Below, piece by piece: positions 39,151 to 50,907 of a stretch of DNA of 64,000 nt. The DNA comes from Acidobacteriota bacterium (GTDB lineage Bacteria; Acidobacteriota; Terriglobia; Bryobacterales; Bryobacteraceae): positions 1 through 64,000 of the forward strand of contig JANXRE010000017.1 of assembly GCA_025353165.1 (NCBI GenBank), written 5' to 3'. The notes beneath the pieces were generated by a model that saw nothing but the letters and a program-made list of their open reading frames with translations, did not search any database and had not been told where the DNA came from. The translations under genes and the position numbers were made by a program. Numbering within the stretch: position 1 is the stretch's first letter; the number at the start of each line of letters is the position of its first letter.

Positions 39151-39197
39151 CGTAGCGCACGCACTCGCGCGTGCGCTACGCCATTCCTCAGGAATGG
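39151..39197. terminator. Two tandem hairpins between convergent genes (REP-like copy 3)
   Basis: CGTAGCGCACGC (39151-39162) pairs with GCGTGCGCTACG (39169-39180); then CCATTCC (39181-39187) pairs with GGAATGG (39191-39197), overlapping the reductase stop codon. The first arm shares the repeat core seen at 8767 and 32236. It probably stops transcription from both sides. Confidence 0.65.
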
Positions 39198-40168
39198 CCG
39201 AGGACCGCGTGGGGCCGGTAGGGTTCGGCCAGAGCCGCAATTTCGGCGTCATCCAACTTCAATTCCTGGGCCGCCACGGCGTCTTCGAGATGCTTCGCCT
39301 TACTGGCGCCCACGATGGGAGACGTAACTCCAGGCTGGTGAAGAACCCAGGCCAGCGCGATCTGCGCGTTTGACACGCCCCTCTTTTGGGCGATTTCCGT
39401 GACCCGGTCCACCACCGCGAAATCCGAGTCCTGATAGTACAGCTTCTGAGCGTATTCGTCGGTCTTCGCGCGGAGCGTATCGCCGAAATCCGTCCGGCTT
39501 CGGTTCCCGGCCAGGAAGCCGCGCGCCAGGGGGCTCCACGGGATCAGTCCGACCCCCTGGGCCCGGCAGAGCGGCATCATCTCGCGCTCCTCTTCCCGGT
39601 ATATCAGGTTGTAATGATTCTGCATCGTCACGAAGCGCGCCCAGCCGTTTTCCTTGGCGACCTGCTGCATCGCGGCAAATTGCCACGCGAACATCGACGA
39701 GGCGCCGATGTACAACGCTTTCCCGGCCCGCACGATGTCGTTCAGCGCCGACATCGTCTCCTCGATCGGTGTCTCGTAGTCGAAGCGATGAATCTGATAC
39801 ACGTCGACGTAGTCCGTTCCCAGGCGGCGCAGGCTGTCGTCGATGGCGTGATGGATGTGCTTGCGGGCCAGTCCGCGATGGTTCGGATCGTCGCTCATCG
39901 CATGGAAGACCTTCGTCGCGATCACCACGCGGTCGCGCGCGGCAAAATCCTTCAGCGCGCGCCCCAGTATTTCTTCGCTGCAGCCCAGCGAGTACATATC
40001 CGCCGTGTCGAAAAAGTTGATCCCCAACTCGAGTGCGCGGCTAATAAAAGGACGGCCCTCCGCCTCCTCCAGTACCCACTCGCGCCACTTCTTGCTGCCG
40101 TAAGTCATAACGCCGAGGCAGATCCTCGACACCTTCACGCCCGCCGAACCCAGATTGACGTACTCCAT
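39188..40168 (-). CDS. Aldo/keto reductase
   Basis: A 326-residue NADPH-dependent oxidoreductase with the AKR barrel. Catalytic tetrad residues are visible: Asp and Tyr in FDTADMYSLG, Lys in VVIATKVF, His in VYQIHRFDY. GLIPWSPLARGFLAG is typical of the YhdN/Tas-like group. Its start overlaps the preceding FHA gene stop as TGATG, making it the last gene of the cell-wall kinase operon, although no functional link is evident. Substrate unknown. Confidence 0.9.
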   Translation of the reverse strand: MEYVNLGSAGVKVSRICLGVMTYGSKKWREWVLEEAEGRPFISRALELGINFFDTADMYSLGCSEEILGRALKDFAARDRVVIATKVFHAMSDDPNHRGLARKHIHHAIDDSLRRLGTDYVDVYQIHRFDYETPIEETMSALNDIVRAGKALYIGASSMFAWQFAAMQQVAKENGWARFVTMQNHYNLIYREEEREMMPLCRAQGVGLIPWSPLARGFLAGNRSRTDFGDTLRAKTDEYAQKLYYQDSDFAVVDRVTEIAQKRGVSNAQIALAWVLHQPGVTSPIVGASKAKHLEDAVAAQELKLDDAEIAALAEPYRPHAVLGHS

Positions 40169-40956
40169 CAGCTCTCCTTGATTTCGAACACTACTCGTGC
40201 ACTCCCGAGATGAATCTCATCGCCGGAACTCAGTTGCGCGCCGCCCGCCGCGCCTCTCGGAACATCGATCCTGCGCCCTCCGCGGAAGATCACCGTGCCG
40301 CGCTGGCTGTGCGTGTCGTACAGCCGGTACGCGCCGCTGTCGTAGCGGATGTAGGCGTGCTCGCGGGACACGGTGGTTTCGGTTTCGGCGAAAGCAAGAT
40401 CGTTGCGGCGGCGCAGCCCTTCCTTCCCGACAACCTCCGCGAGCCGCCCGAGATAGAACCGGTCCGCCGCGATTTCGCATTCGCCCGGAGCCGCATCGCC
40501 CACGGTCACGCGGAGCTTGGCGCATGGGCGCACCGCGGGATCGGGCGAGGGTGTGACCGATCCCTTGCGCGTCGAACATTTGACCTGAAACGGCCGTCCG
40601 GACCAAGCCAGCGCCGGGTCGTCGACGACCTCAAAGGTCGCCTGAAATCCGCGGGGCAAGGCACACGCGGCCTCGGCCAGAAGTTCCCGGATATCGGCGG
40701 CGATCCCTTCTTCTCCGGCGAACGCGGCCCGGCAGACTTCGCGTTCGCGCTCGTCCTGCGCCGCGATCCGAATATCGACGTTGTTAAACGGGAACACACT
40801 CTTGCCCCCGCCAAGCGGCTGAATCCCGCTCCGGATCTCCTCGAGAATTTCGCGGCGAACCTCCAGCAGTTCCTTCGCGTGCTGGCCCGAAAACTTCGTC
40901 GTCCAACTCTTGACCTTCGCCGCCATCCAACGATCGAGCTGCTCCAGTGGTCTCAT
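40168..40956 (-). CDS. FHA-domain protein (second FHA gene of the cell-wall operon)
   Basis: A 262-residue cytoplasmic protein. Residues ~1-130 are an uncharacterised alpha/beta domain (VFPFNNVDIRIAAQDERE) that resembles the N-terminal domain of FhaA (DUF3662). The C-terminal ~95 residues are a forkhead-associated domain with RRNDLAF, VSREHAYI and HSQRGTVIF, which would bind phosphothreonine. Its ATG overlaps the SEDS-PBP stop codon (ATGA). It probably recruits a substrate of the kinase encoded two genes upstream. Confidence 0.82.
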   Translation of the reverse strand: MRPLEQLDRWMAAKVKSWTTKFSGQHAKELLEVRREILEEIRSGIQPLGGGKSVFPFNNVDIRIAAQDEREREVCRAAFAGEEGIAADIRELLAEAACALPRGFQATFEVVDDPALAWSGRPFQVKCSTRKGSVTPSPDPAVRPCAKLRVTVGDAAPGECEIAADRFYLGRLAEVVGKEGLRRRNDLAFAETETTVSREHAYIRYDSGAYRLYDTHSQRGTVIFRGGRRIDVPRGAAGGAQLSSGDEIHLGSARVVFEIKES

Positions 40957-43900
40957 AGGATCCCCAACTTGTGCGCGGCGGCTACGATCTCGCCGGCGAT
41001 GGGCGCGGCCGCCGTTCCGCCGTATTGCCCATTCTCCACCAATACGGCGAAGGCGATCTGCTTACCCGGCTTCGCGCCGTAGGGAGCGAAGCCGATGAAC
41101 CACGCGTGCGACGCGCCCTTTCCCAATTCCGCGGTGCCCGTCTTCCCCGCGATCGGAATCGGCGAGCCGCTGAGCACGCGCCCCGTACCGGACGTCACCA
41201 CGCCGCGCATATCCGCGGCAAGCTGTTTCGCCAGGGATTCCGGCAGCACTTCCAGCGGCGCGCGAACGCGCGGGTTCGTTTCGTCGATCACCCACCGGCC
41301 CTGCGGCGCGTTGCCATTGTTGGCGACGGTCGCCGCAACGCGCGCCATCTGGAACGGAGTGACCACCACTTGTCCCTGCCCGTAGGATGCCTGCGGCAAA
41401 AACTGGCGCAGCTTCTCGGGAGTGTTGGGCGACGCCACCGAAATCCCCAGCTTCGAGGCCGTGTCGAACAGCATCGGCGCTCCCACGCTGTCCGTGCCCA
41501 ACTGCGCGAAGAACGCGTTGCAGGAAACCACGATGCCCTTCTGTAAATCCACCGACCCGTGCGGAGAAGTGTCCTTCACGTCGTCCCGGATCGCGCGCTT
41601 CCCGACGACATTGCCGATCCGCCCGTCGGGCAGCCGGATGCATTCGTAGCGCTTCTGGGCGAGCGCGGGGTCCTTTCGCAATGCCGCCATGGCCGTCACG
41701 ATTTTGAACGACGAGCCCGGCGGATACATGCCGAAGCGCGCGCGATCGAGCAGGTCGTCGCTGGGCAGCGGAACCGAAGCGTTGGTCTTGAGCGTCGCGA
41801 ACTGGCCTTCGGACGGCCACGGATAGCTGACCGAGGCCAGCAGGTCTCCGGTCGCCGGATCCATCACCACCAGCGCCCCTTTCGTTTTGCCCAGCTTCAA
41901 AAGATGCTGTTGCAGAATCTCGGAGGCGCGCAATTGCAACCCGGCGTCGATGGACATGCGCACGTCCTTGGGCCGCTCCAGCAGTTCCTTGACGGCCGGG
42001 TTGTCCGGTTCATAGCGGTGCCGCAGCAGAGGAATCAGCGCGCGGTAATCGCGCTTGATGCGGCCTTCTTCCACTTCGACCACGTCGTCGTATCCTTGCA
42101 GCCGCACGCGCGACGCCTTCTCCTGAAATGCCGTATTCGTCGCCCCTTGTTTGAGGCGCGAGCGGGCGTCGCCGAGCAGATAAAACAGCGGCGCGCCCAG
42201 CGGGTACAGCCGCTTGTCGAGCTTTGACGCCGTCTGATCCAGGTTGACCCCCAGCGCCGCGTACTCCGCGCGGTGACGCTCGATGGTCGGCCAGTCGTTC
42301 GCCGCCAGCGGCAATCCGTTGCGGTCGTAAATTGCGCCTTTCGGCAGGTCGCGCGCAATGGCGAGCAGTCGCGGGTTGTACTGGTAGCGGCGCGTACCGT
42401 CGGCCTGCGTGGTCAGAGCGCCGCGCACCAGGATCTGATCGGCGCGCGCAATCTGCACCCAAGCGAAGCGGCCGATCACCACCAGCAACAGCGCCGCGAG
42501 CCCAGCCGTCAGCCGTCTGCCGCCGGCACCGAAGTTCTCGTATTGATCGCGTTTCTTACCCGCCGCCGATACCGCCAGAATAATGCCGACCAGAGCGAAA
42601 TTCGCGACCATCGAAGTCCGGCCGTAACTGAGGAACGGCGATACAACGCCGGACAGCGGGATCAGCCCCACCAAGCCGCCGGTGATCAACAGGATCTGAT
42701 ACGCGTTGATCAGACTCAGCCCGATGACCAGGAAGAAGGAATAAATGCCGGGCGCATTCCTGGCGATCCTGAGTCCACGGTACATGAGGATCGCGTACAA
42801 AACATACACGGCGAGGATGCCCAGGAACCCCAACTGCTCGCCCAGTGCCGAGACCACAAGATCCGTGTGCGCCGCGGGAACCAGTTGCGAGTCGCCCAGC
42901 CCGAGTCCGGTGCCCGTCACGGCGCCGGTGGACAGCGACCATAAGGAAGCGGCCACCTGGTCACCGCCGCGAACCTTGTTGTCCCACGGAGACAGCCACA
43001 TCGAAACGCGATCGCCCACCGTGTGCGGATAGCCCATGGCGTACCCGCCGGCGAATCCCAGAAAGATCACGAACAGGCCCGCCGCGGCCAGCAGCACCTT
43101 GTTTCGCGCGATGCTGTACATGGTCAGAAACAGGCATCCGATAATCAGCGCGGGCCCCAGGTCGCTCAGCCAGAAGAAAAGCGCGAGCGACAGCAGCACG
43201 CCCAGCATCACCGGCAGCACGTAGTCCAGACGCGGCAAATTGATGCGCCGCGCCCACTCAGGCAACAGGCTCCGGTCCTGTTTCAACTGCCTCAGCGCGT
43301 CCCAGTTCTGCGCGAAATAGCCCGCCAGGAACAGCACGATCAGAATCCGGATCAGTTCCACCGGCTGGAAGAAAAACAGGTTTACTTTGGCGTCGCTGGT
43401 TCCCGGACCGCTGCCGAACAGGCCGAGCCCAACCGCCAGCAGCAGGCTCAGCGCCAGCGGGACATAGCTCAGGCGGCTGAATTGCCGCTCGTAGTCTGGC
43501 AGGCTGAAGAGCGCGATGGCGAAGCATCCCGCGACCACCCCCTGCGCGAAGTCACGGAACAGCAGCGTGTCGCGCAGCGGATCCCGCAGGCTGATCATGA
43601 GCATCAGCCCGATGCCGGACAGCGTCAGAACAAGCGGGAGCAGCCAGTTGTCGCCGGTAAACGCACGCCATCGCCAGAACACGTGCACCGCGAGGAACGC
43701 GCCGAAGAATAACGCGGACCAGAGAATCGCCTGATTCCGAAATGCGCCGGCATCACGGACCCGCAGGTGCGGCTTCAGCGTGGCGAATTCTGCCGGCGTC
43801 AGCAGACGGATGGAGACCTCTTTCGGGCGGTCGTGGCCAAACAGGCGAGCCCACCGGCTCGCCAGCCGTCCGCGATTCTCTTCTTCGTCCTCGTCCCGCT

Positions 43901-44318
43901 GGTCGCGCCGCGCGCGCGCTTCCTCCATTCGCCGGCCGAGGTCGGTCAGGCTCTGCATTCTCGCGATCTCCGGTTCCGCGACGCGCATGCGCGCGATCGC
44001 GCCGGTATTGCTGAATCGTTCGCCGTGGCGCACGCGATCGTAGATGCGGTTGGCGGCGAAGCTCTGGTCCGCGCCGGACGGAAGCGCACCGAGGTACGGA
44101 ATCAATTGCTGGGGGCCCGTCAGACGATTCAGATCGACGGTTTCTTCGGCGGCCGCCCCGGTCTTCGCCGAGTACACCAGGTACAACCCCGTGCCCACCA
44201 GAATGGCGCTGGCGAGCAACAGCGCGAGTTCCGCATTGCGCGATGCGGACCGCGCCGCTTGCCGCGCCGTCTGCCGCTTCTCCCCTCTCGCCGCGAGCTC
44301 CTCGCGAGTGATCTTCAT
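40953..44318 (-). CDS. SEDS glycosyltransferase-class B PBP fusion (RodA/FtsW plus transpeptidase)
   Basis: One 1,121-residue chain joins both peptidoglycan synthase activities. ATG at 44318 overlaps the kinase stop (ATGA). Residues 31-50 are a membrane helix and 51-190 a soluble region. Residues ~195-585 form the SEDS polymerase, with FWLSDLGPALI (D386 matches the essential Asp) and GLIPLSGVVSPFLSYG. After another helix (~604-622), residues 640-1121 are a penicillin-binding transpeptidase with S869-S-F-K872, S932-C-N934 and K1059-T-G. In most bacteria these are two proteins. The fused order and the neighbours suggest kinase-controlled elongation or division. Confidence 0.88.
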   Translation of the reverse strand: MKITREELAARGEKRQTARQAARSASRNAELALLLASAILVGTGLYLVYSAKTGAAAEETVDLNRLTGPQQLIPYLGALPSGADQSFAANRIYDRVRHGERFSNTGAIARMRVAEPEIARMQSLTDLGRRMEEARARRDQRDEDEEENRGRLASRWARLFGHDRPKEVSIRLLTPAEFATLKPHLRVRDAGAFRNQAILWSALFFGAFLAVHVFWRWRAFTGDNWLLPLVLTLSGIGLMLMISLRDPLRDTLLFRDFAQGVVAGCFAIALFSLPDYERQFSRLSYVPLALSLLLAVGLGLFGSGPGTSDAKVNLFFFQPVELIRILIVLFLAGYFAQNWDALRQLKQDRSLLPEWARRINLPRLDYVLPVMLGVLLSLALFFWLSDLGPALIIGCLFLTMYSIARNKVLLAAAGLFVIFLGFAGGYAMGYPHTVGDRVSMWLSPWDNKVRGGDQVAASLWSLSTGAVTGTGLGLGDSQLVPAAHTDLVVSALGEQLGFLGILAVYVLYAILMYRGLRIARNAPGIYSFFLVIGLSLINAYQILLITGGLVGLIPLSGVVSPFLSYGRTSMVANFALVGIILAVSAAGKKRDQYENFGAGGRRLTAGLAALLLVVIGRFAWVQIARADQILVRGALTTQADGTRRYQYNPRLLAIARDLPKGAIYDRNGLPLAANDWPTIERHRAEYAALGVNLDQTASKLDKRLYPLGAPLFYLLGDARSRLKQGATNTAFQEKASRVRLQGYDDVVEVEEGRIKRDYRALIPLLRHRYEPDNPAVKELLERPKDVRMSIDAGLQLRASEILQQHLLKLGKTKGALVVMDPATGDLLASVSYPWPSEGQFATLKTNASVPLPSDDLLDRARFGMYPPGSSFKIVTAMAALRKDPALAQKRYECIRLPDGRIGNVVGKRAIRDDVKDTSPHGSVDLQKGIVVSCNAFFAQLGTDSVGAPMLFDTASKLGISVASPNTPEKLRQFLPQASYGQGQVVVTPFQMARVAATVANNGNAPQGRWVIDETNPRVRAPLEVLPESLAKQLAADMRGVVTSGTGRVLSGSPIPIAGKTGTAELGKGASHAWFIGFAPYGAKPGKQIAFAVLVENGQYGGTAAAPIAGEIVAAAHKLGIL

Positions 44319-46177
44319 TGCGCGCCCACCCCCGCCTGGAGCTCCAAGAGACGCAGCTCCACGCGCTTCTGACCCTGGATGACGATCATCTGATTGCGAA
44401 GCGAATCTCCGAACATCCCGGTCTTCGTATAGAGCTCCCCGGCGTGAACGTAATCCTGCTGCGCCTTGTCGAGGTAATCGCGCTCCTGCGCCGGAAGCTG
44501 GGTGAAACTCCGGGACTCGCGCCAGATACGCTCCGCCCTGCGCCGGTAGCCGTCCGCCAGTTGACTCGTCTCGCGCTTTCCCATGGGATGCCCGTACTCG
44601 TCCGCTCTCTTCAAAGCTTCTTCCGCCTTCTCGACATCGTTGAGGTCGTAAACGTAAAGACGAGCCAGGCCGAGATAAGGATCCGGCGAGCGTTTCAGCA
44701 ATTGCGCGGCTTCGTCGAACTTCATGACAGCCGCATTCAGCCACTTCTGCCGCGTCGCGTTATGGAAGCGGCCGGCGTTGATACGGTCCAGGTGCCCCTC
44801 GCAGATCCGTAATTTTCCTCGAATGTGTTTGTCTTCCGGATCGAGTTCCAGCGCCTTCGAAAGCTGATCCCGCGCTTTGGCCCATTGTGCCTCGTGCACC
44901 GACGGAGCGTCGTTGTCGCGGTACTCGGTGATCGCCTGATCCGCCGCGGACACCAGGCCGTTCTTGAGAGCGCCCTTCGCGCCCCATAGCAGAAACGGCA
45001 TGTGAACGCTGTTGGCAAGCTTCTGGTAGCGGTTCCAGCCCTCCTCCGGATTCGCAATCCTTTCCGCCTGCAGGTCGGTCTTGAGCTTGCTGGCTTCTCC
45101 GGAAAAATGAACCTGCAGATACAGGAAGATAAATCCGGCGAGAGCCGCAATAGCAGCGGCGGCCAAGCATCCCATCGTGACCCGGCTTCGCGATTCCGGC
45201 GTCAGTCGAACTGGCTTGGATTCCGGCAGCGGCGTCGTCGTGCGGATGGTGCGGTCGGCGTCCGCGGGCTGCTCGGCCCAGGGAACCGTCGTTCGCGCCG
45301 TCGCCTCGGGGTCGGGAATCTCGGCCTCCACTGGCTCGCCATTCCGGAACCGGATCAGGTCGGCCTTGGCCTCCATCGCGCTTTGATACCGGCACTGCGG
45401 ATTGCGGTGCAGCATCTTGCCGAGAACCCGGCTCAAAGGCTCAGGACACGATTCCGGGAGCGGGTCGGGAGGATCGCCGGATCGAATGCGCCGCTCCATC
45501 TTCTCTCTGGAAGTAGCGTCGAACGGCAGCCGGCCCGAGATCATCTGGTACAGAAGCACGCCGACCGACCATAAATCGGAGTGGCTGTCGATGTGTTGCG
45601 TATCCAGCCGCTCGGGCGAACAGTACGCAGTGCTGGCGAACAGGTTCGTTGTGAACCCCCGCGTCTCGGCCAGCGCTTTTGCGATCCCGAAATCGAGGAC
45701 CATCACGAAATTCTGCGAATTGATCCGGATGTTCTTCGGTTTGAGGTCGCCGTGCACCACGCCCGAGAACTGGCGTCCTCCGATCTCCGCGCTGAACGCG
45801 CGCAGGTTCTCGAGCAGGTCGCAAAGCTCCGTCGCGATATGCACGCCGAAGCCCGGCTGGAGCGGGCCGCGGTCGATCAACGCCGAGAGATCCTCGCCCT
45901 CGACGTACTCCATCTCGATATAAAGATCGGTACCGAGGTTGCCGTATCGATTCACCGGAACCACGCGCTTGTCCACCGCCGCCAGGCGCTTCTCCAACTC
46001 CGCGCCGACGCGCTCGGCATCCAGGATGTCCTGGTCGCTCGCATCCACCATCTGCACAATCTTGAGGGCGACCTGCCGGCCGGTGTCCGTATCGCGCGCG
46101 AGATACACGAAGCCCATCGCGCCGCGCCCGATCAGACGGACGATTTCGTACTGTCCGTACCGGTCGCCCGCGTTCAT
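44315..46177 (-). CDS. Transmembrane Ser/Thr protein kinase (PknB-like)
   Basis: A 620-residue kinase, start ATG 46177 overlapping the phosphatase stop as ATGA. The kinase domain (residues 9-~275) has GRGAMGFVY, VALK with K39, HGDLKPKN in the catalytic loop (HGD in place of HRD) and DFGIAKA. One membrane helix lies at about 370-395. The outer part has no PASTA repeats; it consists of helical TPR-like sequence (LSKALELDPEDKHIRG, DPYLGLARLYVYDLND). It probably phosphorylates cell-wall proteins in the operon and is opposed by the upstream PP2C. Confidence 0.9.
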   Translation of the reverse strand: MNAGDRYGQYEIVRLIGRGAMGFVYLARDTDTGRQVALKIVQMVDASDQDILDAERVGAELEKRLAAVDKRVVPVNRYGNLGTDLYIEMEYVEGEDLSALIDRGPLQPGFGVHIATELCDLLENLRAFSAEIGGRQFSGVVHGDLKPKNIRINSQNFVMVLDFGIAKALAETRGFTTNLFASTAYCSPERLDTQHIDSHSDLWSVGVLLYQMISGRLPFDATSREKMERRIRSGDPPDPLPESCPEPLSRVLGKMLHRNPQCRYQSAMEAKADLIRFRNGEPVEAEIPDPEATARTTVPWAEQPADADRTIRTTTPLPESKPVRLTPESRSRVTMGCLAAAAIAALAGFIFLYLQVHFSGEASKLKTDLQAERIANPEEGWNRYQKLANSVHMPFLLWGAKGALKNGLVSAADQAITEYRDNDAPSVHEAQWAKARDQLSKALELDPEDKHIRGKLRICEGHLDRINAGRFHNATRQKWLNAAVMKFDEAAQLLKRSPDPYLGLARLYVYDLNDVEKAEEALKRADEYGHPMGKRETSQLADGYRRRAERIWRESRSFTQLPAQERDYLDKAQQDYVHAGELYTKTGMFGDSLRNQMIVIQGQKRVELRLLELQAGVGAQ

Positions 46178-47706
46178 CGGCTGGCTCCCGCCGGAGCGAG
46201 TTTCCGGAGCTTGGGCGCCGTCACCAGCTTGCCACCGGAGAGGAATGTGTTCTGCTTCGCCACTTCCTCCATGCCTTGGACCAGCCACACGGCCTCCGCG
46301 CCGTTTTCGTAAAAGGTATTCTCTGCAACGCGCGGCGGGACGCGCGAACGGAGGATCAGCCCGGGATTGCCGGACACCTGATTCCGCTCGATGGCCGGCG
46401 TCGCCGATTCGCCCACCACGATCCCCGGCCCGGCGTTGTTGTGAATGGAACAGCCGATGACAGCCCCGCGCGCGTTGCCGGAAAACTCAATCCCCGCGCC
46501 GCGGCTGTCCGAGATCTCGTTGCGGTCCAGGAGAATGTCGCTCGAGTGAAGGTGAACGCCGCCTTCGCGGATGCGGAAGCCCTCGACGCGGCCGCTGTGG
46601 ATGCCGTCGGCCGTCACGGAGCCCAAAATCACGGCTTCGTACGGAGGCCGGGCAATCAACTGCACTCCCTCCTTGAGCTGCACCGGTCCGGTGTAGGCGC
46701 CGGCCGTGACTTCAATGGTCGAACCCGGTTTCGCTTTTGCGATTGCTTCCGAAAGCGATGTGGGCGGCCCGATCACGATCGTCGTCGCGGCCGGCTCAAA
46801 GGGGAATCCGGCCATCCATGCGAAGTATCCCGACACAGCGAGCGCGCCGGCGACGATACCGGCCGCGAGCCAGGCGGCCGGCGCCATGTACCAGGGACGG
46901 GGCGGCGCCGCTGGGGTCAGTCGCCCGGTGTCTTCGTCCGTGGCGGGCTGCCCACGCGCAAAGCGTTCGCCCACGATCAGGATGGCTGAGATGTTGTCTT
47001 TTCCGTTCCCGTTGGCGGCCGAGATCAGTTCTTCCACGGCGCGCCGGCGGTCCGCCGCGTTTCGTTCCACGATGCGCAGAATCTCGGGCGAAGGAATCGC
47101 GTCGCTAAGCCCGTCGCTGCACAGCAGCAACGCGGTGTCGGGATCGAACGGCGTCTCCGCGATCTCGATGAATTCGGGATCCTCCGGAGTTCGCTCCATC
47201 GATCCGACGTCGCGGAAGACTTCGTTGCGGCGCGGGTGCCGCATGGCCTCTTCCTCGGTCAGTTCGCCGCTGTCCTCGCGCTCGCCCACCGGCGAATGAT
47301 CGTGGGTGATCTTCCGGATCGCGCCACGCCGGATTTTGTACAGCCGCGAATCGCCGACGTGGCCGATGACCACGCGATGCCCGTCGATCACCGCGACGGT
47401 AAGCACGCACGCCATCCCGTGCCACTCGGGTTTCCGCGCCGCGGCCTCCAGGATCCCGTTGTTTGCCAGGGCGATGGCTTCGCGGATGCGCTGCTCCACC
47501 GTGCCGGTCTGCCTCTCCAGCCGCAGCCGGATCCGCTCCACCGCGATCTCCGCGGCGTGCTCGCCCGCCTCGTGGCCTCCCATGCCATCGACCACCAGGT
47601 AGATGCCGCGCGAATCGTCGCAATGCACCCGATCCTCGTTGTTGGGGCGCACCGGACCCTGATCGCTCAAAGCCGCGGAGAGAAACCTCGGAGTGGCGGA
47701 CGTCAT
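46174..47706 (-). CDS. PP2C protein phosphatase with transmembrane helix and beta-helix domain
   Basis: A 510-residue PstP-like phosphatase. Residues 1-~250 are the PP2C domain with NNEDR, VVDGMGGHEAG, GHVGDSRLY, LLCSDGLSD and GKDNIS. A membrane helix follows at ~275-297. Residues ~310-490 are a right-handed parallel beta-helix (PPTSLSEAIAKAKPGSTIEV, GVHLHSSDILLDRNEI, GCSIHNNAGPGIVV), placed outside the cytoplasm. PP2C phosphatases usually lack such a domain. It precedes the kinase with an ATGA overlap. Confidence 0.9.
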   Translation of the reverse strand: MTSATPRFLSAALSDQGPVRPNNEDRVHCDDSRGIYLVVDGMGGHEAGEHAAEIAVERIRLRLERQTGTVEQRIREAIALANNGILEAAARKPEWHGMACVLTVAVIDGHRVVIGHVGDSRLYKIRRGAIRKITHDHSPVGEREDSGELTEEEAMRHPRRNEVFRDVGSMERTPEDPEFIEIAETPFDPDTALLLCSDGLSDAIPSPEILRIVERNAADRRRAVEELISAANGNGKDNISAILIVGERFARGQPATDEDTGRLTPAAPPRPWYMAPAAWLAAGIVAGALAVSGYFAWMAGFPFEPAATTIVIGPPTSLSEAIAKAKPGSTIEVTAGAYTGPVQLKEGVQLIARPPYEAVILGSVTADGIHSGRVEGFRIREGGVHLHSSDILLDRNEISDSRGAGIEFSGNARGAVIGCSIHNNAGPGIVVGESATPAIERNQVSGNPGLILRSRVPPRVAENTFYENGAEAVWLVQGMEEVAKQNTFLSGGKLVTAPKLRKLAPAGASR

Positions 47707-47710
47707 CCGT

Positions 47711-47803
47711 TCAGCTCTTCTTCCAAGCAGACCAGACCGCGCAGAGCGTGAACGCCAGCAATAACGCCAGTAAGACGAGCCGTGCCGTATGCAGCCAGGC
47801 CAT
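47711..47803 (-). CDS. 30-residue membrane micropeptide in the cell-wall operon
   Basis: ATG 47803 lies 2 bases after the FHA stop codon; the stop at 47711 lies 4 bases before the phosphatase ATG. The encoded peptide is one hydrophobic helix (residues 4-24, LHTARLVLLALLLAFTLCAV) with a short basic tail WSAWKKS. The exact fit between two coupled genes, on the coding strand, supports translation. Annotation pipelines usually miss genes this short. Function unknown; a regulator of the kinase or synthase is possible. Confidence 0.6.
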   Translation of the reverse strand: MAWLHTARLVLLALLLAFTLCAVWSAWKKS

Positions 47804-47805
47804 GT

Positions 47806-48666
47806 CTATTTGACCGCCCTGAATTCCAGAAAGACAACTCCCGCCAGGCCGATGCGTGCCTTCGGCGGAAGCGCCGCCTCGATGTTTTTATCGACGTCCT
47901 GGCCGTCCGCCTGCTCGATGCTGGCCGGCACGCGCTTTCCATTCACCGTGGTTCCGAGCGTGCTCAAATCCTGGATGTAGAATTGGCCGTTCTTCGGATC
48001 GCGTCGGATTTGCATGTGCTCGCGGGACACGTCCTTTTTCGTTTTCAGCTTGAGGTCCACCCAGCGATCGGCCGCGCCGCGCCCGATCTTGATCAGGTCC
48101 TTGGTCATCTGGAAGGTGTGCGGTCCAGCGTCGTCCTCGTACTCGATGCTCGCATGAACGATGCCTGAGGCGTGGCCGGTGTCAACATTGCCGCTGCGCA
48201 TCGTGGCGGTGGTTGTGCTTTCGCCGTCGCTCCGGCGCTTAGTCACCCGCTCCGTCAAGGTGCCGGCGCGGTCGTCGGATCCGCTCTGAACGGGAAACGT
48301 GGAGTGAATCACCAGCGGCGCCTCGCGGGCGTCGTCCTCGGTGTTCTCGTGGAACTGGACGGACCAATCGCCCAGGGTTTCATACCGTTTCCCGCGCCGC
48401 TTGGCGGCCATCAGCGGGATCTTGAGCCGCGGTTCACCGGCTTTGTTTAATTCCGTCAGCCGCTCGTTCAGCGCGCGCACCGCCTCGTCCCGCGTACGCG
48501 GCTCCAGCGGGCGGAGTCGCTCCAGGTCGTCGATATACAAATAGATATCGAACGCGCTCGGCACGAGGTTGCTGTAGAAACTGGGACAGGTCCCCTCCTC
48601 CATCTCTTCGAGGATGAGGTGGATGATCTCTTCTGGGGTGACTTGCACCCCCTGCTGGTCGGGCAT
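47806..48666 (-). CDS. FhaA-like FHA-domain protein (first gene of the operon)
   Basis: A 286-residue cytoplasmic protein. The N-terminus (CPSFYSNLVPSAFDIYLYID) resembles the FhaA N-terminal domain, which begins with a similar VP-x-x-F/Y motif. A variable linker rich in Ser, Thr and charged residues offers kinase targets. The C-terminal ~100 residues are an FHA domain with KIGRGAADRW, VSREHMQI and STLGTTVNGKRV. It is the first gene of the run of coupled genes down to the aldo/keto reductase. In Actinobacteria, FhaA links PknB signalling to lipid II transport and synthesis. Confidence 0.85.
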   Translation of the reverse strand: MPDQQGVQVTPEEIIHLILEEMEEGTCPSFYSNLVPSAFDIYLYIDDLERLRPLEPRTRDEAVRALNERLTELNKAGEPRLKIPLMAAKRRGKRYETLGDWSVQFHENTEDDAREAPLVIHSTFPVQSGSDDRAGTLTERVTKRRSDGESTTTATMRSGNVDTGHASGIVHASIEYEDDAGPHTFQMTKDLIKIGRGAADRWVDLKLKTKKDVSREHMQIRRDPKNGQFYIQDLSTLGTTVNGKRVPASIEQADGQDVDKNIEAALPPKARIGLAGVVFLEFRAVK

Positions 48667-48745
48667 AAGGTTCTACCCTAATCTTCTCACTGGTTCCGGG
48701 TCAGGCACAGTCGAGAATATGTAACTGGAGACTAAGGCTCGAGTG

Positions 48746-48883
48746 ATGTGGAAGCTCCACGCCGGCGATCCCGGCGATTATGCCTATTCGGCCGATATTG
48801 CACCGGAGTTCTCCCGTGCGGTGAATCAGTTGGTCGCGGGCGATCATGGGATGGATATCGTGCAGGTGTTTGTTCCTAGGTGA
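48746..48883 (+). pseudogene. Short uncharacterised ORF coupled to the TPR fragment
   Basis: A 45-residue frame (MWKLHAGDPGDYAYSADI, then VNQLVAGDHGMDIVQVF). The open frame reaches back to a CTG at 48725 in the context CTGGAGACTAAGGCT, which looks like a lost ATG start. Its stop overlaps a GTG that opens the TPR frame. No family recognised; it may be a decayed gene. Confidence 0.3.
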
Positions 48884-49263
48884 GGGTAGCGACTTACCAG
48901 CGGAAATACGTTGCAGCCACGGCGAAGGTATCGCGAAGCGCGCATTATGGGGAAGCCGCCGCGATTTACCCGGCGGAGGGCGATGAGTTGAGGCTGGCGC
49001 ACACGGTCCGGCATGTGGGCGACATCCTGCGGGAGGCGGGACGCCCGGAACCGGCCGAGCCCTGCTATCGCGAAGCCCTGGCCATCTACCGCCGCAACGA
49101 ACGAACCCCGCCGCTTGATTTGGCGAACGCCATCTGGGGATTCACCCGCCTCAAGGGCCGGTCAGCGGAAGCGAAGGCGCTCTGGCAGGAGGCGCGGGAT
49201 CTATACGCGGCTGTCGGGGTGGAGGCGGGTGTCGCGGAAAGCTCGGGACGGCTGGTGGAGTAG
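48880..49263 (+). CDS. TPR-like hypothetical protein, possibly truncated
   Basis: GTG at 48880 overlaps the preceding stop (GTGA). The 127-residue product contains LRLAHTVRHVGDILREAG, CYREALAIYRRNE, PLDLANAIWGF and EARDLYAAVGVEAGVAES, which match a TPR-type protein common in Solibacter. Its N-terminus is shorter than I would expect, and the 3' end overlaps the GMC gene on the other strand by 63 bases. It may be a live short gene or a fragment. Confidence 0.45.
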   Translation: MRVATYQRKYVAATAKVSRSAHYGEAAAIYPAEGDELRLAHTVRHVGDILREAGRPEPAEPCYREALAIYRRNERTPPLDLANAIWGFTRLKGRSAEAKALWQEARDLYAAVGVEAGVAESSGRLVE

Positions 49264-50907
49264 TTCGCCGTTCTTCGCGGCCTGGATCATATGATCGGCG
49301 GCGCGGTAGGCCAACGCCTGGATGGTAGCGGTGGGCTGCTGCCGGGCCGAGGTCACGAAGTTGCTGCCGTCCACGATGAAGAGATTCGAAACGTCGTGCG
49401 CGCGGCTATGCGCGTTCACCACCGATCGCGCCGGGTCGTTGCCCATCCTGCAGGTGCCCATCAGGTGCCGGCTGGAGCTGAAGGCGTCCACTGGCTGTGT
49501 CCAGATCTTCTTCGCGCCGGCGGCCTCGAAAATCTCGATCTGTTTTTTCCGCAGCCACTCCATATTGGCGATGTCGTCAGCATGGTTGGAGAACGTGATG
49601 CGCGTCGCGGGAAGTCCCCACGCGTCCTTCCAATCGGGGTCGAGCGTGACGGAGTTTCGCTCCATCGGTAGAGAGGTCGCGTGCGAGAGCAGCGACATGG
49701 TGTGGGTGAAGTACTCACCGATCATCCTCTTATACTCAGCACCCCACCTCGGCGCATCCGAGGGCATGCCGTTGAGCGCGAACCCCGCGGGGTAGTAGTC
49801 GAAGCGCGCGTCGATTCCGCCTCCGCCATAGAAGCCACGCTTCGGATCGGAGCGGTAATAGTCGTGTATGAGGCGCGTGACCTGGATGCCTTTGTACTCG
49901 TTCAGCGGGTGCTCGAAAAGGGCGCTCGACAACGAACCGTTGTCCCACATCAGGTTCCGGCCGACGAGTCCGCTCGAGTTTGCGAGGCCGTCTGGGAATC
50001 GCGAGGAGGCGGACATCAGGAGCAGGCGCGCGCTTTCCACGCCGTTCGCGCACAGTACGACGACCTTGGCGCGTTGGAAGACCTCTTTGCGTTTCGCGTC
50101 GAAGTAAATCGCGCCGGTGGCCCGGCCGCCTGCGTCCGTCTCGATTCTCCGGACGTAGGAGTCCGGGCGGATTTCGCAGCGCCCCGTCTTCTCCGCCACC
50201 GGTATCACGCTGACCAGCGTGCTCGATTTCGATTTCATCTCGCAGCCGAAAGATTCGCAGAAGCCGCAGTGGACGCACGCGCCGCGACCGCGGTAAGGCT
50301 GCGAGAGGATCGCGACCGGGGCGGGGAAGGGGTGCAGTCCCAGTTTCTTGCAGGCCTTGTCGAAGATCACACCCGACGATTTCACCGGCATCGGCGGAAG
50401 CGGATAGGGTTTCGAACGCGGCGCTTCGAACGGGTTCGCCCCGGCAAGTCCGGAAATGCCGAGGTCGTATTCGGCCTTGGTGTAGTACGGCTCGAGGTCC
50501 GCATAGGAAATCGGCCAATCGGCGAAACTCGTACCCGGGACATCTCCGAACAGGCTGCGCTCGTGAAAGTCGGACTCATGAAAACGCCAGTAGTTTCCGG
50601 TGAAATGGACGCTGCCTCCGCCGACCTGCCTTCCATATTCGATCGCCTTGAGCATCTTCGCGGGTTCGGCGTCCGTTTTGCGATAGGTCAGGGGCTGCGT
50701 TTGGATGTCGTTGGTCAGGCCGGGCTGGAAGGTGTACTTGATCTCGTCGTGCGAGTAGTCGGTCTCGCGCAGGTACGGACCCTGCTCGAGCACGACCACC
50801 TGGAAGCCGGCCGTCGAGAGCTCCTTGGCCATGACCCCGCCCGCCGCTCCCGCGCCAATGACGAGGAAATCGACCGGGTCGGAAAATCGGAAAGTCGGAC
50901 CGGTCAC
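49201..50907 (-). CDS. GMC-family FAD-dependent sugar dehydrogenase with cysteine cluster
   Basis: A 568-residue flavoprotein. FAD motif GAGAAGG; C-terminal HLMGTCRMG and QQPTATIQAL around the active site. Cysteines C211, C214, C217 and C222 form a C-x2-C-x2-C-x4-C Fe-S-like cluster. It is the last gene of a minus-strand operon: acyltransferase-like protein, Gfo/Idh/MocA oxidoreductase, small subunit, then this gene, with an ATGA overlap to the small subunit. Probably oxidises a sugar or glycoside in the periplasm. Confidence 0.88.
   Translation of the reverse strand: MTGPTFRFSDPVDFLVIGAGAAGGVMAKELSTAGFQVVVLEQGPYLRETDYSHDEIKYTFQPGLTNDIQTQPLTYRKTDAEPAKMLKAIEYGRQVGGGSVHFTGNYWRFHESDFHERSLFGDVPGTSFADWPISYADLEPYYTKAEYDLGISGLAGANPFEAPRSKPYPLPPMPVKSSGVIFDKACKKLGLHPFPAPVAILSQPYRGRGACVHCGFCESFGCEMKSKSSTLVSVIPVAEKTGRCEIRPDSYVRRIETDAGGRATGAIYFDAKRKEVFQRAKVVVLCANGVESARLLLMSASSRFPDGLANSSGLVGRNLMWDNGSLSSALFEHPLNEYKGIQVTRLIHDYYRSDPKRGFYGGGGIDARFDYYPAGFALNGMPSDAPRWGAEYKRMIGEYFTHTMSLLSHATSLPMERNSVTLDPDWKDAWGLPATRITFSNHADDIANMEWLRKKQIEIFEAAGAKKIWTQPVDAFSSSRHLMGTCRMGNDPARSVVNAHSRAHDVSNLFIVDGSNFVTSARQQPTATIQALAYRAADHMIQAAKNGELLHQPSRAFRDTRLHPDSRV

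Follow-up and report, generated by a model that had tools for sequence, protein, structure and literature searches.

A fused SEDS polymerase and class B penicillin-binding protein encoded in a conserved kinase, phosphatase and FHA gene module of Acidobacteriota

Introduction

In mycobacteria and other actinobacteria, the cluster closest to the locus described here has the gene order fhaA-fhaB-pstP-rodA-pbpA-pknA-pknB. Passages on mycobacteria in PMC11898655 name the members of this cluster. The pairs RodA-PBP2 and FtsW-FtsI belong to the same two families, SEDS polymerases and class B penicillin-binding proteins (PBPs), and have the same catalytic residues as the protein studied here, but the partners are separate proteins. 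According to passages of PMC10449877, an engineered fusion of Escherichia coli RodA and PBP2 is active, and natural SEDS-PBP fusions in a single open reading frame (ORF) exist, with the Rhodococcus RHA1 genome as its reference 18. Here we describe a SEDS-PBP fusion from the window, which is a stretch of 64,000 nucleotides from contig JANXRE010000017.1 of an Acidobacteriota bacterium (Bryobacteraceae). The fusion gene lies in an operon with genes for two FHA proteins (FHA1 and FHA2), a PP2C phosphatase, a Ser/Thr kinase and a transmembrane (TM) micropeptide. We propose, with a probability of roughly 0.6, that this operon encodes an additional peptidoglycan synthase, in which SEDS polymerase and PBP are permanently paired and which is controlled by reversible Thr phosphorylation. 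A literature search without preprints and with few subscription journals found no published account of this operon, its insert domain, its micropeptide or acidobacterial SEDS-PBP fusions.

Two enzymes in one protein

One protein holds both domains; PF01098 matches residues 252-586 (E 1.3e-44; 153.1 bits, cut-off 26.4) and PF00905 matches residues 814-1112 (E 5.8e-38). SEDS Asp486 and PBP residues S869, K872, S932, N934, K1059, T1060 and G1061 are invariant in 29 of 29 aligned fusions. No GT51 domain (PF00912) was found in the fusion protein up to E 0.1, as is proper to a class B PBP. By Pfam match and catalytic residues, the fusion is a member of both the SEDS and the class B PBP families, and its enzyme activities are predicted. 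This agrees with the initial annotation of the window, which had described RodA/FtsW and a transpeptidase in one protein of 1,121 residues with intact catalytic motifs. Asp486 was equated with E. coli RodA Asp262, the catalytic Asp of periplasmic loop 4, by the P-E-x-H-T-D spacing. Passages of PMC10449877 list Pro257, Glu258, His260, Thr261 and Asp262 as residues of this RodA loop and state that Asp262 and Pro257 are required for activity. The counterpart of Pro257 is Pro481, which is kept in at least 90% of the fusion alignment.

The initial annotation had also suggested predicting the structure of the fused protein, and AlphaFold2, with 41 sequences, gave a confident model (pLDDT 90.1, pTM 0.83). 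Read by eye, the model has 13 membrane-length helices, which are two extra N-terminal helices, ten SEDS helices and one PBP anchor, and the linker is continuous with the anchor as a single helix (591-624). By this helix count, the N-terminus would be cytoplasmic and the transpeptidase periplasmic. Solved class B PBPs, including Pseudomonas aeruginosa PBP3 and Mycobacterium tuberculosis PBPA, match the PBP half. The fold-search matches listed were all PBP chains, so the assignment of the SEDS fold rests on sequence. The insert loop between the two extra helices has 86-142 residues in seven fusions compared. The insert domain alone had no significant PDB fold match, and the pLDDT of its own model was only 74.9. 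By eye it had been thought to be a helix-hairpin-helix domain, an idea that was rejected because there was neither a Pfam hit nor a significant PDB match with the domain alone.

The N-terminus of the fusion carries a conserved tail, M-A-V-T-R/K-S/T (residues 1-6, window positions 44301-44318). Among the 29 fusions, Thr is found in 23 and Ser in two at the fourth position, R/K in 25 at the fifth and S/T in 25 at the sixth. This tail is a candidate phosphorylation and FHA-binding site, and thus a candidate switch.

Distribution of the fusion in Acidobacteriota

When 396 genomes of the phylum were searched with the whole protein, at least 12 proved to have a fusion. These are the genome of the window, nine others at 45-54% identity and two divergent ones (G059 and G341), in which both halves were checked to lie in one frame. 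Among the nine, the fusion of G258 is split over two contigs and that of G051 has an insert. In the family of the window, 21 of 61 genomes carry the fusion, eight of these 21 have two paralogous modules, and G433 additionally shows a fragment. Six of 80 genomes in the class of G125 pass E 1e-60; the divergent G341 belongs to this class and does not pass, so that at least this many carry a fusion. All titles of the eight best named loci (L092-L099) give Acidobacteriota or a taxon belonging to it. In L042 (8113-11403) and L043 (9593-12877), the fusions are divergent (27-30% identity), span about 1,095 codons and are directly preceded by a PP2C gene.

The genomes G125 (7,480,314 bases) and G325, each a single contig, carry the fusion without a stop, and residues ~585-640 are open in all 29 aligned fusions, which come from many assemblies. 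Neither a stop codon or frameshift in this segment nor restriction of the fusion to the present assembly was found, and the initial annotation stands on this point. The initial annotation had suggested a search for co-occurrence of SEDS and transpeptidase domains across Acidobacteriota with tabulation of the neighbours, and the genomes searched with the whole protein showed a recurrent fusion in a recurrent operon.

Conservation and limits of the operon

We fetched 45 acidobacterial fusion loci and excluded four, namely L011 (short contig), L041 (rearranged), and L042 and L043 (divergent). In 33 of the remaining 41 loci, the complete set FHA1-PP2C-kinase-SEDS·PBP-FHA2 is encoded on a single strand and in this order. 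One locus is counted twice among the 41, since L095 and L089 are the same place. Six of the eight incomplete loci are cut near contig ends. In the rearranged L041 (5986-18531), one strand carries kinase, fusion, kinase, FHA2, FHA1, PP2C and kinase, with an insert between the fusion halves. A triple fusion SEDS-PBP-FHA of 1,427 codons in L079 was discarded, as an undetermined residue lies in frame between PBP and FHA2.

In the window, seven reading frames on the minus strand are joined by gaps or overlaps of 4 bases or less, as seen in ORF calls and translations (Table 1). FHA1 and the micro-ORF are separated by 2 bases, and the micro-ORF and PP2C by 4 bases. PP2C and kinase, kinase and fusion, and fusion and FHA2 overlap by 4 bases each. 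The start of the kinase is most likely the ATG at 46177, placed so that it and the PP2C stop overlap by 4 bases, although the mechanical ORF list gave a GTG at 46288. The tight joining of FHA, peptide, PP2C, kinase, SEDS-PBP, FHA and reductase frames, as described initially, was thus confirmed. Neither a sigma-70-type promoter nor a terminator was found in 48500-49300. The aldo/keto reductase, which had been counted as an operon member, was not detected by tblastn (E 1e-4) in any of 39 further fusion loci; therefore the module ends at FHA2, and membership of the reductase was not borne out. Conserved flanks beyond FHA1 and FHA2 were also considered and rejected; of seven proteins flanking the module of the window, two of oxidoreductase type together gave three scattered hits in 39 loci, and the others none. 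By these comparisons, the flanking genes of the window are not shared with other loci.

Table 1. Positions of the genes and protein parts at the locus
Feature	Positions in the window	Strand	Evidence
FHA1, N-terminal FhaA_N-like domain and C-terminal FHA domain, 286 aa	47806..48666	-	PF00498, PF12401
Micro-ORF, 30-aa single-TM peptide in the FHA1/PP2C interval	47711..47803	-	ORF; TM peptides at matching gaps elsewhere
PP2C phosphatase, 510 aa; one TM segment (273-292); C-terminal right-handed beta-helix	46174..47706	-	PF13672, PF00481, PF13229
Ser/Thr kinase, 620 aa from ATG; one TM segment; C-terminal TPR-like region	44315..46177	-	PF00069 136 bits, TPR_19
SEDS-class B PBP fusion, 1,121 aa, 13 membrane-length helices	40953..44318	-	Pfam, alignment, model
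Fusion, periplasmic insert domain (predicted), residues 53-194, flanked by two extra N-terminal TM helices	43737..44162	-	Comparison with actinobacterial SEDS; model
Fusion, SEDS core, residues 223-586, invariant Asp486	42561..43652	-	Pfam, 29-fusion alignment
Fusion, cytoplasmic linker and PBP transmembrane helix, residues 587-626	42441..42560	-	Stop-free; continuous helix 591-624 in model
Fusion, transpeptidase domain; S869xxK872, S932xN934, K1059TG1061	40983..41879	-	Pfam; motifs invariant in alignment
FHA2, second FhaA-like protein, C-terminal FHA domain, 262 aa	40168..40956	-	PF00498; FhaA profile match
Aldo/keto reductase, outside the conserved module	39188..40168	-	PF00248; 1-base overlap with FHA2

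Kinase, phosphatase and FHA proteins

The residues needed for signalling by phosphorylation are kept in the module. The catalytic Lys, Asp and DFG are present in 36 of 36 kinases, and HGD replaces HRD in 32 of them. The metal-binding residues of PP2C are Asp40, found in 32 of 34 proteins (the other two have gaps), and Asp119 and Asp237, found in all 34. Ten of these 34 phosphatases have only 285-320 aa, and therefore the beta-helix is missing in them. FHA1 keeps R196, S214 and H217 in 30 of 30 homologues; all 35 FHA2 proteins keep R and H, and 30 of the 35 keep Ser.

FHA1 of the window matches PF00498 with 43.3 bits and PF12401 (FhaA_N) with 26.3 bits (cut-off 25). PF12401 was detected at E 0.01 or better in 26 of 30 FHA1 homologues, and in only two of 29 FHA2 homologues. 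A profile of seven reference actinobacterial FhaA proteins, all of which carry FhaA_N (PF12401) and FHA, matched FHA1 (6e-21) and FHA2 (4e-21, 232 columns) over most of their length. Because any FHA domain would raise a match over the whole length, the N-terminal parts were compared alone. Against the N-terminal part of FhaA, the probability was 95.8% for FHA1 and 94.8% for FHA2, while three control segments gave 0.1-0.3%. The N-terminal part of FHA2 alone matched FhaA with E 5e-8. The N-terminal parts of FHA1 and FHA2 had no direct match to each other (0.3%), though each matches FhaA. By profile comparison, both FHA1 and FHA2 are homologous to actinobacterial FhaA.

A transmembrane micropeptide between FHA1 and PP2C

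FHA1 and PP2C are on one strand in 35 loci, and in 25 of these the gap between them is at least 60 bases. A hydrophobic peptide of 26-45 residues is encoded in 23 of the 25 gaps, compared with 0.03 expected from 300 dinucleotide shuffles of each; the length limits of the count (24-50) were chosen after the peptides had been seen. The two gaps lacking it are those of L076 and L079, and L079 has one further along. In 17 of 23 cases the start of the micropeptide overlaps the FHA1 gene by 4 bases, and that of the window begins 2 bases past FHA1. The peptides often have LY or LH at the N-terminus and basic residues at the C-terminus. In four well-aligned close pairs (L037/L039, L039/L040, L038/L099 and L082/L089, of which two share a member), the differences at codon positions 1, 2 and 3 sum to 22, 13 and 43, an excess at the third position; two misaligned L086 pairs and one redundant pair were left out. 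The micro-ORF, a bare item in the initial annotation, proved to be conserved by both measures, and it probably belongs to the module.

The position of the micropeptide is that of FhaB, a protein whose N-terminus bears a hydrophobic segment in several loci of actinobacteria and clostridia. A gene for FhaB itself (TM and FHA) was not found before the phosphatase in the window, where there is only the TM micropeptide. A detached membrane anchor of FhaB would fit in position and topology; hhalign gave 3.4% for this relation, no better than the 0.4-5.6% obtained with six control TM segments. A tentative idea, which we consider doubtful, is that the peptide of about 30 residues is a dedicated regulator of the phospho-controlled synthase. 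It would then represent a previously unseen class of microprotein that replaces FhaB, possibly as FhaB's membrane anchor, and couples kinase and phosphatase to a fused synthase with its own periplasmic sensing domain.

Relationship to the actinobacterial cluster and to other fusions

The acidobacterial module and the actinobacterial cluster share an FhaA-type FHA protein, PP2C, SEDS followed by class B PBP, and a Ser/Thr kinase in one run, and FHA, PP2C, SEDS, PBP and kinase genes are consecutive in many actinobacterial loci. Two extra hydrophobic N-terminal segments with a short loop were observed in 10 of 13 actinobacterial SEDS N-termini compared, and a motif R(N/G/T)xEL, like RNAEL in the window, in eight of 13. 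Thus, the two extra helices are shared with many actinobacterial SEDS, and the PBP half matches M. tuberculosis PBPA among others. Because FHA1 and FHA2 are homologous to FhaA, the likeness to the fhaA-pstP-rodA-pbpA-pkn cluster would reflect common ancestry. Homology of the acidobacterial and actinobacterial clusters is well supported by these comparisons of proteins and gene order, and it covers neither direction nor route. The parallel drawn in the initial annotation has therefore turned out to be homology, as seen in the FhaA N-terminal matches and the two extra SEDS helices.

The differences are also clear. In the acidobacterial module, SEDS and PBP are fused as one ORF, in contrast to separate rodA and pbpA. 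The kinase is single, is encoded before the synthase and not after it, and has a TPR-like part in place of the PASTA family. FhaB is lacking, and a TM micropeptide is often in its place. The module adds a second FhaA-like protein at its end and a periplasmic insert domain where actinobacterial SEDS have a short loop, and its phosphatase often carries a beta-helix. The acidobacterial five-gene module is a real and recurrent variant, and the micropeptide is its most novel part.

Outside Acidobacteriota, SEDS and PBP are mostly encoded by two adjacent genes, as seen in the best 80 named loci ranked by likeness to an acidobacterial query. Among the matches listed, single-ORF SEDS-PBP fusions elsewhere are L100, L105 and L141 from Clostridia and L101 from Actinomycetota. 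They resemble the acidobacterial fusions in being a single ORF with SEDS first and PBP second, but none matches the profile of the acidobacterial N-terminal extension. The three clostridial loci had no kinase, PP2C or FHA profile hit, whereas L101 has kinase and PP2C neighbours. A fixed 1:1 pair as a distinct solution, as had been suggested, is thus not unique to this lineage; natural fusions are mentioned in passages of PMC10449877, and others are found in Clostridia and Actinomycetota. In addition, crystals of an Atopobium parvulum 'peptidoglycan glycosyltransferase' (PDB 4jbf, 4qjg and 4n1x) are numbered 523-950, which suggests that the parent protein is also a SEDS-PBP fusion.

Trees were built for each half by a quick method, midpoint-rooted and thinned to 91 of 136 SEDS rows and 92 of 137 PBP rows. 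The acidobacterial fusions, including the divergent pair, form one clade in each tree (SH-aLRT 99 for SEDS and 97 for PBP). In both trees, the clostridial and actinomycetotal fusions are placed among unfused genes from their respective phyla. The trees conflict over L078 and L093, which the SEDS tree puts with the B paralogues and the PBP tree with the A group. L132, titled Bifidobacterium breve, groups with Mycobacterium in both trees and is likely a mis-binned contig, and L112 (Rhodococcus) carries a cyanobacterial lineage in the tree labels.

Discussion

How might the module work? In the additional, phospho-controlled synthase that we propose, the SEDS half would polymerise lipid II with Asp486 as catalytic residue, and the PBP half would cross-link the product with Ser869 as nucleophile. 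The membrane kinase, with its TPR-like part in the periplasm, and the membrane phosphatase, with a periplasmic beta-helix in many members, may sense the envelope. They would set the phosphorylation of cytoplasmic segments, perhaps of the N-terminal tail of the synthase. The two FhaA-like proteins would recognise these marks and either recruit the synthase or hold it back, as was proposed for FhaA in mycobacterial wall growth. The TM micropeptide may be a membrane subunit of the kinase, the phosphatase or the synthase; we infer any such role. Phospho-control of the synthase is proposed from gene order and from the intact residues of kinase, phosphatase and FHA proteins.

Besides the fusion, the genome of the window has two unfused SEDS genes, each of which shares its contig with a PBP gene, as well as further PBPs and GT51 domains. 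Because these two unfused SEDS genes remain, the fusion would be an additional synthase that adds to the standard machinery and does not replace it. Because of them, and because of its patchy occurrence in the phylum, the module probably has a conditional or specialised task in wall building and not the core role in elongation or division. A separate observation concerns one GT51 hit in this genome (C106:3019-3535), which is split into two pieces that overlap, with a TAG inside one of them; this is perhaps a broken gene or an assembly error.

Several observations weigh against the proposal. The window protein has Ala where E. coli RodA has Glu258, near the catalytic site; in passages of PMC10449877, Glu258Ala is described as having no effect on E. 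coli activity in vitro, and its B. subtilis counterpart as causing a modest loss in vivo. The His preceding the catalytic Asp is replaced in three of 29 fusions. The Thr of the tail is lost in four of 29 and is Ser in two of 29, and the G125/G348 group is without it; therefore this Thr is not a universal switch. No PASTA family was found in the window kinase up to E 0.1, and TPR is present instead; therefore the signal differs from that of PknB. L065 lacks FHA1 and L091 lacks PP2C, with no contig edge explaining either. FHA1 and PP2C adjoin in 10 of 35 loci and leave no room for a micropeptide. Finally, the patchy distribution speaks for a dispensable role.

Three other explanations have to be compared with a phospho-controlled additional synthase. 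That the fusion is an artefact of assembly or frameshift, or a decaying gene, could be suspected from the genome of the window, a draft of 200 contigs, but independent assemblies including the single-contig ones are free of stops and the active-site columns are invariant in 29 of 29, so that this idea is already refuted and has practically no weight. It is unlikely that the fusion is only a structural convenience of a constitutive synthase, and that the kinase, the phosphatase and the FHA proteins act mainly on other targets in the wall, for example a lipid II flippase, in the manner of mycobacterial FhaA and PknB. Consistent with this idea, mycobacterial FhaA is reported in passages of PMC11898655 to bind the flippase MviN in its phosphorylated form and to pull down numerous further envelope proteins, and the candidate N-terminal Thr is not universal. 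However, in 33 of 41 loci, which come from several families, the synthase gene is flanked by those for kinase and FHA2, with overlapping genes in many, which favours joint function.

Another possible but doubtful explanation is that the module makes a chemically distinct wall product for a specialised process, be it a resting cell, morphological change or stress repair, and that the fusion prevents mixing with the canonical pairs. This would fit with its coexistence with two other SEDS genes, with its presence in only 21 of 61, at least six of 80 and at least 12 of 396 genomes, and with the two paralogous modules in eight of 21 family carriers. On the other hand, no observation points to a particular process or substrate, and no sporulation or differentiation gene was found among the eight window neighbours examined.

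SEDS polymerases and class B PBPs are usually separate proteins. With a natural 1:1 fusion whose operon also encodes a kinase, a phosphatase and phospho-readers, polymerisation, cross-linking and phosphorylation would be measurable in one protein. The conserved micropeptide is a concrete, small and testable new component. Furthermore, the module is found in a soil phylum whose wall biology has been little studied.

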